DNA from: Paenibacillus sp. NAIST15-1
GTDB taxonomy: Bacteria > Bacillota > Bacilli > Paenibacillales > Paenibacillaceae
Length of the DNA: 64,000 nucleotides
Direction: 5' to 3'
NCBI RefSeq assembly: GCF_001894745.1
Contig: NZ_BBYF01000012.1
Coordinates: forward strand, 62,001 to 126,000
The notes under the pieces were generated by a model, which was given only the letters and a program-made list of their open reading frames with translations, had not been told where the DNA came from and did not search any database. How positions within the stretch are numbered: position 1 is the stretch's first letter; each line of letters opens with the position of its first letter. Below are positions 23,308-47,120 of this stretch, one piece after another. The translations under genes were made by a program, and so were the position numbers.

Positions 23308-25047
23308 TTATAGCTGCTTGCGCCGCTTAAGCAGCTCCGTATATTGCCGTTCCAGCTCTTCGATGTTATCCCCCTTGCGCGGAGCAGACAAACGTCCCAT
23401 CAAGTCCGCCCATTCCAGATCCAGCTTCAATCGCTCCTCAGCCGACATCGATGTGAACGATTGTTCATTTTTCATAGCTTCCTGTGCAAGTACAAATTCT
23501 GAAGAGCCTCCTGCCTCAGCAGGTCGAGGGCGCTGTCGCTCACGAAATGCTTCAATCGTCATCCATTCCAGCTCTCCGTCACGGAACACAATCGTATGGG
23601 TAGCCGTTCGATTCAGCAGCATGCGATCATGCGTCGCGAACAGGATCGTCCCCGGATACTCAAGCAGTACACGCTCCAGCTCCTCACGCGTGTCGATATC
23701 CAAATAGTTCGTCGGCTCATCAAGCAGCAGCATATTTGCTTCGCTCATGAACAGTTTGGCGAGCTGTGTCTTCACCTTCTCGCCCCCACTTAGCTGCCAT
23801 ACCGGCTTCAAAGCCTCATCCCGGCGCAGTCTAAGCCTAGCCAATACCGTCCGCACCATCGTCTGATCATAGGCGCTCGACTTCAATACATTATCCAGTA
23901 CACTGGCCTGCAGATCTAAGGCATACAGCTTCTGATCGAAATACGCCATTCGCGCACTAGGAGAGAAGCGAATTCGCCCTTCCTCCATCGTCGCATCTCG
24001 CTCTCCTGCAGTTCTCAGCTCATAGGCCTCCACCAATCGACGGAGTAAGGTTGTCTTCCCAGCTCCATTCGAACCGACTAAGGCCACACGCATATTCGGC
24101 CGAATGCTGAAGGAACTGCTCTGTAACAACTCACGGTCGCCTGCACGCAGCGCAAGCCCTTGAACCTCCACAGCCTGCTTGCTGCGAATCGGAGCATGGC
24201 ATTCCGCATTGAACAACACCTGCACCTGCTCAAATGGCTTTTCCACGACCTCCAACTGATCAAGACGCTTCTCTATCGCTTTAACCGTCTTCTCTACCTT
24301 CGCCTGCTTGCGATTGAAGTGTGGACGCGCAAGCCTCATTTCCTTACTGGTCAACCCCTTCTTAGGCCTGCTGACCTTACTTGCCTGTTCCTTCTTCTCT
24401 ACAATCGCTTCCTGCAATCGGCCTCTCTCCGCGACATAATTGTCATACGAGCGTTGGTGCTCCAGCCGCAGTCGTTCCTTTTCCCTGCGATAATCCTCAT
24501 ATCCACCAGTAAAGACATGAATCTGTTCGTTCTCCACTTCCCAGATTCTCGTTGCCACATGATTGAGCAGCGTTCGGTCATGTGAAATGAACAATAACGC
24601 GCCTGTTCTGGAATATTCGATCATTCGATCCTCAAGCCACTCCATTCCTTCCACATCCAAATGGCTTGTCGGTTCATCGAGCATCAACAGTCCTGCACCT
24701 GCGTTCATGGCCTCATTCAATCGGCGCTTCGTCCGTTCGCCGCCACTTAATGTTACTTCCTCTGCTTCTTCCTCCCGCACATCATCTAGTTGTGGCACGA
24801 AGGATGTTACCACATTGCAGACTACGTTTCCTTCATCCGGCTCTACCATGCCAGCCAATATACGCTGCAATGTCGTCTTCCCGACTCCGTTGGCGCCAAT
24901 AAGGCCGATTCGATCTCCTGCATAAATGCGAAGAGAACCGTCCGTGCGGAACAAGCGGCGATCGGCTACATAGGCCGCCAATTGATGGGCTTCCAATACA
25001 AGATGCCCCGATTTATTTTTGAATTGTGCTATATGGTTGATAGTCAT
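23308..25047 (-). CDS. ABC-F type ribosomal protection protein
   Basis: Soluble twin-ATPase of 579 residues without membrane segments. The first ABC domain has GANGVGKTT and LSGGERTKRR with DEPTSHLD; the second has GSNGAGKTT, LSGGEKVKTQ and DEPTNYLD. Between them is a long charged linker (EKKEQASKVSRPKKGLTSKE onwards) as in Vga/Msr/VmlR antibiotic-resistance factors, which bind the E site and displace drugs from the peptidyl transferase centre. The drug class cannot be read from sequence. The ATG at 25047 has GGGAGG upstream, and this Shine-Dalgarno is part of a terminator hairpin; together with the overlapping leader ORF this indicates drug-inducible attenuation. Confidence 0.9.
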   Translation of the reverse strand: MTINHIAQFKNKSGHLVLEAHQLAAYVADRRLFRTDGSLRIYAGDRIGLIGANGVGKTTLQRILAGMVEPDEGNVVCNVVTSFVPQLDDVREEEAEEVTLSGGERTKRRLNEAMNAGAGLLMLDEPTSHLDVEGMEWLEDRMIEYSRTGALLFISHDRTLLNHVATRIWEVENEQIHVFTGGYEDYRREKERLRLEHQRSYDNYVAERGRLQEAIVEKKEQASKVSRPKKGLTSKEMRLARPHFNRKQAKVEKTVKAIEKRLDQLEVVEKPFEQVQVLFNAECHAPIRSKQAVEVQGLALRAGDRELLQSSSFSIRPNMRVALVGSNGAGKTTLLRRLVEAYELRTAGERDATMEEGRIRFSPSARMAYFDQKLYALDLQASVLDNVLKSSAYDQTMVRTVLARLRLRRDEALKPVWQLSGGEKVKTQLAKLFMSEANMLLLDEPTNYLDIDTREELERVLLEYPGTILFATHDRMLLNRTATHTIVFRDGELEWMTIEAFRERQRPRPAEAGGSSEFVLAQEAMKNEQSFTSMSAEERLKLDLEWADLMGRLSAPRKGDNIEELERQYTELLKRRKQL

Positions 25048-25196
25048 AAAAAAACCTCCCTGGATAACCCAGAGAGGATAGTGTGCATACGGCTGCAAGC
25101 CTGCGCTTCACTTATGATATGGAATCGAACAAGTATGCTATGCACGTGTCTATACACATATGCTACAGCAATCCGTTCTAAGCAGTGATGCATCAC
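25044..25196 (-). CDS. Putative leader ORF of the ABC-F gene
   Basis: A 50-codon frame that starts with GTG at 25196 (GAGGAG 9 nt upstream; ATG at 25193 is the next codon) and stops in the overlap ATGA with the ABC-F start. It encodes a His-, Arg- and Val-rich peptide (MMHHCLERIAVAYVYRHV...) with no similarity I recognise. A six-codon ORF (MRRYGK) just before it ends in the overlap TGATG. Ribosomes stalled here by an antibiotic could change RNA folding and let transcription reach the resistance gene. That role is inferred from position and structure. Confidence 0.55.
   Translation of the reverse strand: MMHHCLERIAVAYVYRHVHSILVRFHIISEAQACSRMHTILSGLSREVFL
25048..25077 (-). terminator. Attenuator terminator overlapping the ABC-F ribosome binding site
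   Basis: Minus-strand RNA CCUCUCUGG / CCAGGGAGG (9 bp with one U-G pair) with a short loop, directly followed by seven U. The 3' arm contains the GGGAGG ribosome binding site, so this hairpin can block both transcription and translation. Confidence 0.75.
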
Positions 25197-25338
25197 TTCC
25201 CGTATCTCCTCATTCAAAATTGACACTGAGGTAGTGAGTACAAGTGCAGCACCGTGCGTTATTCCTTTACAAAATAAGTGATAAATGATGCAAGCTATAA
25301 ATATAACGGCCGATATCAATCTGCGAAAATGGGCAGAT

Positions 25339-25350
25339 CTATCCTCTCTG
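25339..25350 (-). promoter_or_regulatory. Candidate anti-terminator arm for the ABC-F leader
   Basis: On the minus strand CAGAGAGGATAG, the exact 12-nt complement of CTATCCTCTCTG at 25070-25081, which forms the 5' arm of the attenuator. Pairing would free the ribosome binding site. Upstream, TTGACA (25375-25380) and a poor -10 TACGTT (25351-25356) are 18 bp apart; if that promoter is used, transcription would begin inside this arm, so a more distal start is needed for full pairing. Confidence 0.5.
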
Positions 25351-25527
25351 AACGTACATTTTGAAATATAAAGCTGTCAAAATGACTTCTATCAGATCAG
25401 ATTAGTTCTCCATCGCAGTAGATACCTTGCCCTTTCATTCGAATAAAATCTTACGCATCGAAAAGTTCTGATGCGATCTGTATCATTGTATGCCAATTTA
25501 CTCAAATTTATCAAGTACCATTTTACA

Positions 25528-46928: not shown

Positions 46929-46979
46929 GAACGTTCGGTATTCTGTGAAGAAACCAGATGAAAAATCGACTCTCCCTTT

Positions 46980-47120
46980 CTTATCTGCCAGAACATTACG
47001 TTCTGAAGGAATTAGCACCATTGACATCTTGCAATCACATAACTTATTGTTATGCATCCGGGTTGCAAGATCGGTTGCCGGGCTTCGCAGGGCCTGTCCC
47101 TCCGCCACTCTTGATAAGAA
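46980..47120 (-). ncRNA. SAM-I (S-box) riboswitch aptamer
   Basis: The minus strand shows the S-box signature in order: CTTATCAAGAG, GGCGGAGGGACAGGCCC, GAAGCCCGGCAACC, a variable arm, GGTGCTAATTCC, and closing GATAAGA that pairs with the first CTTATC (P1). A terminator follows at 46893-46928 and the target is the methionine importer. Confidence 0.95.

Follow-up and report, generated by a model that had tools for sequence, protein, structure and literature searches.

A tripeptide reading frame and a predicted ribosome-mediated attenuator in the leader of an ABC-F gene from Paenibacillus

Introduction

How is an ABC-F ribosomal protection gene controlled when a terminator hairpin and its T tract lie directly before its start codon? 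This question is raised by a locus of Paenibacillus sp. NAIST15-1 that lies within a 64,000-nucleotide stretch of contig NZ_BBYF01000012.1 (hereafter the window). An initial annotation of this DNA had proposed an attenuator of the VmlR/Vga type, in which a distant 12-nucleotide (nt) strand serves as antiterminator and a 50-codon leader frame overlaps the ABC-F start. Based on comparison with related leaders and on computed folding, we consider it very probable that the window leader is a ribosome-mediated transcription attenuator of the vmlR/cplR kind, which probably acts as a translation attenuator as well. A conserved tripeptide upstream open reading frame (uORF) replaces the mistaken leader frame and provides a testable model for the switching of a Paenibacillus-type ABC-F gene. 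The features discussed are collected in Table 1.

Table 1. Coordinates of the leader elements and of the ABC-F gene in the window.
Feature	Position	Strand	Basis and remarks
Predicted leader promoter TTGATA-18-TACAAT	25485..25514	minus	matches 10/12; transcript start expected near 25478
uORF ribosome-binding site AAAGGGCAAGG	25425..25435	minus	sequence; AGGTA invariant in 22/22 aligned leaders
Tripeptide uORF ATG GAG AAC TAA (Met-Glu-Asn)	25402..25413	minus	predicted antibiotic-sensing leader ORF
Anti-antiterminator 5' strand CTAATCTGATCTGA (uORF codon 3/stop and tail)	25392..25405	minus	pairs with the 12-mer region; folding, 63-leader pair counts
Hairpin CATTTTGA...TCAAAATG	25357..25384	minus	inside the anti-antiterminator; 8/8 pairs changed on both sides (63 leaders)
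12-mer CAGAGAGGATAG	25339..25350	minus	shared strand: forms the anti-antiterminator with the uORF tail, the antiterminator with the terminator 5' arm
Antiterminator 3' strand CTATCCTCTCTG	25070..25081	minus	overlaps the terminator 5' arm
Intrinsic terminator hairpin and 7 U	25048..25077	minus	3' arm holds the ABC-F ribosome-binding site GGGAGG, 25060-25055
50-codon overlapping leader frame (rejected)	25044..25193	minus	open by chance, not conserved
ABC-F ribosomal protection protein gene	23308..25047	minus	579 aa; NCBIfam and solved-chain matches

Anatomy of the leader

The hairpin preceding the ABC-F gene, CCTCTCTGG-GTTAT-CCAGGGAGG (25077-25055, minus strand), consists of nine pairs (-14.7 kcal/mol), and its tract of seven T (25054-25048) adjoins the ABC-F ATG (25047-25045). 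This arrangement, in which the 3' arm contains the ribosome-binding site, is as the initial annotation had described it, and so is the distant complement: CAGAGAGGATAG (25350-25339) is perfectly complementary to CTATCCTCTCTG (25081-25070) at a distance of 269 nt, given before as about 270. When the leader was shuffled 20,000 times by dinucleotides, a complement of at least 12 nt to the terminator arm arose in six cases. Among the 30 loci fetched as a set of relatives, window included, 24 possess the terminator pattern, and in these the terminator, the 12-mer region and a short uORF are retained jointly, all 24 carrying a uORF of 3-4 codons that has a ribosome-binding site and encodes M-x-N (18 loci), MEK (three) or MDNN (three). 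The interval 25044..25380, to which the attenuator had been assigned, misses the functional 5' part (25514-25402) with the promoter and this uORF.

In 22 aligned leaders, which were chosen with such a pattern, the ATG, AA and TAAT of the uORF region are invariant, which would be expected if codon 3 and the stop serve as an RNA pairing strand. In a census of 128 leader loci, a uORF of the form ATG-x-x-TAA[TC] was picked at 113, the TAA being part of the pick and the later frame being taken where MGG frames overlapped (five picks). Residue 2 is of 10 kinds among these 113 tripeptides, as expected for stalling at initiation, whereas the third position holds Asn in 70 of them and Tyr in 19. Four genomes belonging to one genus of another family (L134-L137) have lost the uORF stop, which by eye leaves frames of 7-12 codons (e.g., MDNESES), and have kept the ATCC pairing stretch, a pattern that would follow if function depended chiefly on the start codon and on the RNA. 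Another leader match, L187 (G652), has a changed uORF stop and no gene of at least 140 codons directly behind it; it is perhaps a decayed copy. Other short ORF candidates in L004, L010, L013, L019, L020 and L026 were not common to the loci and were set aside, as was a 12-codon GTG frame noticed by eye in the window, once the tripeptide proved to be conserved.

Promoter-like pairs matching at least 10/12 positions end 45-75 nt before the uORF AUG in 20 of the 22 leaders, counted as the best pair in 150 nt and without a shuffle control. A motif scan also returned a competing candidate downstream of 25339, TTCGCA-16-TATATT (25327-25300, 9/12). The sequence TTGACA-18-TACGTT (25380-25351), promoter-like by eye, was discarded: it falls on the conserved hairpin CATTTTGA/TCAAAATG, and the promoter scan does not list it. 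Just past the predicted transcript start lies a further hairpin, CGCATCAGAACTTTTCGATGCG (25454-25475, minus strand), which is perhaps a 5' stability element; by eye, L003 has a hairpin like it.

Covariation, folding and proposed mechanism

The pairings were evaluated on alignments of 22 leaders (A2/A3), from which L017 and L022 were left out, both having a uORF MRN and the terminator with a more distant 12-mer region. The terminator helix is paired in 198 of 198 cells and has two pairs changed on both sides, a number reached by 7 of 500 shuffles. The antiterminator is paired in 86.7% of 263 cells, 15 of which are changed on both sides (7.9 in shuffles); its score is reached by none of 500 shuffles and its register is by far the best. 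In L020, both antiterminator strands have changed together (GGATTCG with CGAATCC).

Folding further predicts that uORF codon 3, the stop and the tail (CTAATC...) pair with GGAT(T)AG of the 12-mer region. This anti-antiterminator was evaluated on 63 leaders fitted to a covariance model. Of the loci found with R1, a model described below, 66 were used first, near-duplicates and some others being out, and L137, L183 and L185 were then removed because they had long insertions or fitted the model untidily. Together with the hairpin it encloses, the anti-antiterminator is paired in 89.1% of 824 cells, with 116 cells changed on both sides compared with 36 in shuffles (0/500). For both the antiterminator and the 63-leader structure, the excess over shuffles lies in the cells and the score. 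The initial proposal of a VmlR/Vga-type attenuator with the 12-mer as antiterminator is thus supported by retention and covariation in relatives, and the covariation that had been named as a check on the two 12-mers stands for cells and score, although not for the number of doubly changed pairs.

In the computed folding of nascent RNA, with the window leader ended before the terminator 3' arm, the antiterminator has a probability of 1.00 if a ribosome is placed on the uORF AUG; in the free RNA and under a control mask, the value is 0.00. Among the 22 leaders, the antiterminator exceeds 0.5 in 9 free, 21 stalled and 8 control-masked RNAs.

The following mechanism can be proposed. Without drug, ribosomes would translate the three-codon uORF and then leave. 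Codon 3, the stop and the tail would pair with the 12-mer to form the anti-antiterminator, the terminator would form and RNA polymerase would stop at the U tract; in any message arising by read-through, the hairpin would keep the ABC-F ribosome-binding site shut. A drug of the peptidyl-transferase centre (lincosamide, pleuromutilin or streptogramin A) would stall the ribosome on the uORF AUG, and the footprint of the stalled ribosome would cover the uORF tail, freeing the 12-mer. The free 12-mer would then pair with the emerging terminator 5' arm, allowing the polymerase to read through and leaving the ABC-F ribosome-binding site open. We infer promoter use, termination, the inducing drugs and switching by stalling, the drug class being suggested by analogy from the gene family and the type of uORF.

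Several results weigh against this mechanism. The number of antiterminator pairs changed on both sides, three, is close to the 2.5 of shuffles (reached by 249/500), and that of the 63-leader structure, 11 of 15, to 9.2 (55/500); in helix 1 of the latter, departures affect one side in 55 cells and both sides in 10, and 32 cells are unpaired. Swapping antiterminator strands between lineages gives a mean of -16.2 kcal/mol compared with -19.2 for native pairs, but some swaps pair as well as native strands or better. In the anti-antiterminator, native partners are not clearly preferred over swapped ones. The anti-antiterminator segment alone has no exceptional fold (z -1.4). RNAalifold predicted no pairs on the 22-leader alignment, and named structures and duplex swaps were therefore used. 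In full-length equilibrium folding with the ribosome mask, the window terminator stays at 1.00; among the 22 leaders, the terminator falls below 0.5 in only five. Since the window terminator is not opened at equilibrium, the switch must be kinetic and depend on the order of synthesis. In addition, nine of the 22 leaders already lean towards the antiterminator as nascent RNA when no ribosome is stalled; there, folding alone gives no tight repression and a further device, such as vmlR-type pausing, would be needed. Finally, the drug class is assigned by analogy, and the model as a whole draws on sequence comparison and computed folding.

A simpler explanation is that the element is a plain terminator or read-through element, or a purely translational attenuator whose hairpin merely hides the ribosome-binding site, with the uORF being incidental. 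The position of this site inside the hairpin would fit such a view, as would cplR, for which translation attenuation alone can suffice according to the accessible part of the published study (PMC10201436). In contrast, the seven U immediately 3' of the hairpin are invariant in 22/22 leaders, and both the uORF and the antiterminator are conserved. We consequently regard this explanation as improbable.

The overlapping leader frame

The 50-codon frame, which had been the ground for considering this leader novel, runs from the ATG at 25193 to the TGA at 25046-25044 within a 330-nt open frame, and is mechanically present with its ATGA overlap. Its conservation as a leader ORF did not hold. In the closest relative found (L002, 94% ABC-F identity) the same frame is open over 69 nt, and in L003 and L004 (73% identity) over 18 and 87 nt, respectively. 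Within the set of 24 loci that includes the window, a stop falls at +1 in 20, because the second ABC-F codon begins with A, and four (the window, L014, L017 and L022) have about 50 codons or more in this frame, which is no more than chance. A peptide whose translation or termination at ATGA is coupled to the ABC-F start could draw on the presence of the frame and on the comparable ones of 52-90 codons in L014, L017 and L022, but the frame is lost in the 94% relative and in 20/24 loci, and the surviving ones look unrelated by eye except for the tail encoded by the terminator. Control by this peptide is very improbable, and the ATGA overlap is, judged from these loci, incidental. Of the two losses in close relatives that would have spoken against the initial proposal, that of the 50-codon ORF is thus observed and that of the 12-mer complementarity is not.

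A ligand-binding riboswitch or a protein-bound leader that senses a drug or metabolite without the ribosome would match the long structured leader (z -2.7 at 25360-25040) but is scarcely credible, as there is little conservation in the stretch that separates the 12-mer from the terminator and measures 257 nt in the window, the conserved part is a translatable mini-ORF with its ribosome-binding site, and an Rfam search gave no riboswitch match at the leader.

Distribution of the leader

Genomes were searched with two covariance models of the leader, R1, which covers the 5' part and was built from 22 leaders, and the wider R2, built from 63. The genome samples are partly shared, stricter filters apply to searches over 40 genomes and the E-values are rough. 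The window leader itself scores 84.6 bits with R2 (E 1.1e-16), by construction since it belongs to the training set, and it is the only match in its genome with R1 as well as R2. In the family, R1 matches 19 of 394 genomes, namely 18 of the 19 sampled genus members (all training genomes) and one other; the remaining genus member, G010, also lacks an ABC-F match. Matches extend to 23 of 392 genomes in the order (14 of them training genomes) and 46 of 398 in the class (one training genome). With R2, 75 of 348 genomes match in the class and 11 of 398 in the phylum, part of these matches having trained the model.

Around ABC-F relatives of named organisms, 10 of 80 loci match R2 at E <=0.5 and seven at E <=0.0014, including loci of Sutcliffiella horikoshii, Sporosarcina psychrophila, Metabacillus niabensis and Listeria cornellensis. 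A plasmid search returned a 53-base match in two Listeria records and nothing else. A second match of L129, on the minus strand (E 0.033), was dropped as due to chance, and the match of L249 (E 9.1e-4), before an AraC-like protein, is probably also due to chance.

Genes behind the leader

The census covers 128 leader loci from 113 genomes and does not include G783, one of the 52 rows of the R1 class search. The next gene encodes an ABC-F protein at 101 loci, an MFS protein similar to that of L191 at 11, Vat at four and Vgb at three; single loci carry Lnu, Cfr, an LmrB-like MFS protein, another MFS protein, an SDR protein and an alpha/beta hydrolase, and three loci have none of these. The 11 related MFS proteins we take to be DHA3-like. 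When the 22 loci of the R1 training genomes are removed, 106 remain, with 79 ABC-F genes, 24 other genes (MFS 13, Vat four, Vgb three, and Lnu, Cfr, SDR and hydrolase one each) and three without. R1 found 59 of these 106 (47 ABC-F, five MFS, two Vat, one Lnu, one Cfr, one hydrolase and two none) and R2 alone the other 47 (32 ABC-F, eight MFS, three Vgb, two Vat, one SDR and one none).

Gene identities were evaluated with protein models. Three Vat proteins (L169, L175 and L232) pass NCBIfam cut-offs, as do Lnu(G) and Cfr; the fourth Vat protein (L199) is identified by blastp. All three Vgb proteins pass Pfam PF24684 and fail the NCBIfam exception models. Among the 11 DHA3-like MFS proteins, the four scanned with Pfam pass MFS_1 and the seven scanned with NCBIfam are below the TIGR00900 cut-off, while the LmrB-like protein exceeds the TIGR00711 cut-off but not that of Lmr(B). 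The alpha/beta hydrolase (L159) passes a PHA-depolymerase model and therefore may not be a resistance gene. In each of the six rare gene classes, the only locus was also the blastp reference, and the identity rests on NCBIfam or Pfam.

Complementarity to the 12-mer region was evaluated at 122 of the 128 loci, L144, L168, L187, L241, L243 and L249 not being usable. The longest downstream complement has a mean of 7.6 nt versus 5.6 in mononucleotide shuffles; it is at least 8 nt at 57 loci, where about four were expected, and at most 6 nt at 51. Complements of at least 8 nt are found at 46 of 98 ABC-F loci, 4 of 11 DHA3-like MFS loci, two of three Vgb loci and each of the single Lnu, SDR, hydrolase, LmrB-like and other MFS loci. 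None is found at the four Vat loci (5-7 nt) or the Cfr locus (5 nt), whose link to the sensor rests on the match to the 5' model and the uORF; hence, an antiterminator is not shown for every class, which lowers the odds of a shared sensor.

Taking these data together, we lean towards the view that the window leader is one case of a widespread, portable RNA sensor of ribosomes stalled by peptidyl-transferase-centre drugs. A shared RNA, rather than separate inventions for each gene, would have been set by Bacilli before unrelated resistance families: ABC-F proteins, the Cfr rRNA methyltransferase, the Vat acetyltransferase, the Vgb lyase, the Lnu nucleotidyltransferase, and LmrB-like and other MFS exporters. 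By the same reasoning, genes behind such leaders that are not named as resistance genes would be candidate new resistance or drug-response genes: the SDR oxidoreductase (L220), the PHA-depolymerase-like hydrolase (L159) and the 11 related MFS transporters (L170, L179, L190, L191, L213-L215, L217, L221, L228 and L235). Searches of open-access papers, including the accessible parts of PMC9226507, PMC10201436, PMC12421871, PMC6310831, PMC5418344 and PMC10219788, showed neither a portable sensor of this kind nor a link of such uORFs with Vat, Vgb, Lnu or Cfr, which does not prove their absence from print. With the leader models as sole guide, resistance genes of unrelated mechanism are retrieved, which offers a route to drug-induced resistance genes by their switch and not by their protein.

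Two loci may be mentioned separately. G557 has three leaders in one genome, before a Cfr methyltransferase (L183), the alpha/beta hydrolase (L159) and an ABC-F gene (L173). At L199 (G214), a leader match (E 0.0045) stands before the Vat-like gene, with a Vgb_lyase piece further on, possibly a streptogramin A+B resistance operon under one switch.

The ABC-F gene and its locus

The product of the window gene scores 422.2 bits with NF000355 (NCBIfam, ribosomal protection ABC-F), over the curated cut-off of 380. Its best-scoring model is NF000170 (NCBIfam Vga family, Vga_all), with 463.8 bits and below the curated cut-off of 725. The nearest solved chains are 7nhl ("lincosamide-streptogramin A resistance protein", 2e-93) and 7nhn (Lmo0919, 4.5e-82). 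PADLOC matches of the protein were generic ATPase matches and were set aside. In P. profundus, the DNA at this locus is 73-87% identical to the window.

The same genome encodes two more ABC-F-like proteins of 35% identity (G000:C5:295632-297080, with a TAA within the matched stretch, and G000:C2:783245-784588); neither R1 nor R2 gave a match near them. Elsewhere in the window, a SAM riboswitch (RF00162) lies at 46978-47120 on the minus strand (85.5 bits).

Comparison with known systems

In the vmlR leader proper, a NusG-dependent TTNTTT pause follows a pause hairpin. R1, which was trained on relatives of the window, matches vmlR-type leaders with a uORF MIN (L158 and L164), and the L158 protein scores 759 bits against chain 6ha8_V, which we take to be VmlR. 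In Bacillus subtilis, the accessible text on vmlR reports that the uORF MIN was proved by toeprint and mutation and that polymerase pausing is also used (PMC9226507). As far as that text describes it, vmlR resembles the window leader by its tripeptide uORF inside an anti-antiterminator and by an antiterminator strand common to the anti-antiterminator and terminator pairings; in contrast, its ribosome-binding site is located in a fourth hairpin of a 219-nt leader (PMC9226507), whereas the window site lies in the terminator itself. In the window leader, moreover, the distance from uORF AUG to ABC-F start is 366 nt, and the two 12-mers are separated by 257 nt.

The vmlR-type leader of L158 also matches RF02452 (ncr1575, "Bacillus sRNA", cut-off 60) with 160 bits, as does the lnu(G) leader of L147 with 139.6 bits. 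The window gives 17 bits (E 7.7, at 25048-25220), under the cut-off, and the genome search with this family has no match at the leader. These scores suggest that the ncr1575 "sRNA", a public family, is probably a prematurely terminated attenuator and not a trans-acting sRNA; a description of ncr1575 as such an attenuator was not found in a search of open-access papers, which does not prove its absence from print.

The lmo0919/VgaL and vga(A) leaders are reportedly also treated by Vimberg et al. in 2020. Among solved structures, those of the ABC-F proteins behind these leaders come closest to the window protein, and a Listeria cornellensis leader before an ABC-F gene (L072) matches R2, although the score is weak (34.6 bits, E 1.6e-4). 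Both leaders were studied by Dar et al. (2016), as told in the accessible part of a review (PMC5418344).

The cplR leader of Clostridioides difficile, as described in the accessible part of its report, likewise has a tripeptide uORF (MRI) and a terminator that ends at the start codon and sequesters the ribosome-binding site (PMC10201436). It differs by its uORF consensus and gene subfamily, and is likened here by description and not by leader sequence. With the vmlR/cplR type, the window leader shares a uORF of 3-4 codons with a ribosome-binding site near the 5' end (MEN*, 25413-25402), the predicted location of this uORF in a helix competing with the antiterminator (by folding and by the 63-leader pair counts on a fitted alignment), an intrinsic terminator with a predicted antiterminator (by anatomy and covariation), and a ribosome-binding site hidden in the repressed fold, GGGAGG being in the terminator 3' arm as in cplR. 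By analogy with these systems, the window ABC-F gene would be induced by peptidyl-transferase-centre drugs through stalling on the uORF. In its architecture, the window leader is a further member of the published vmlR/cplR group.

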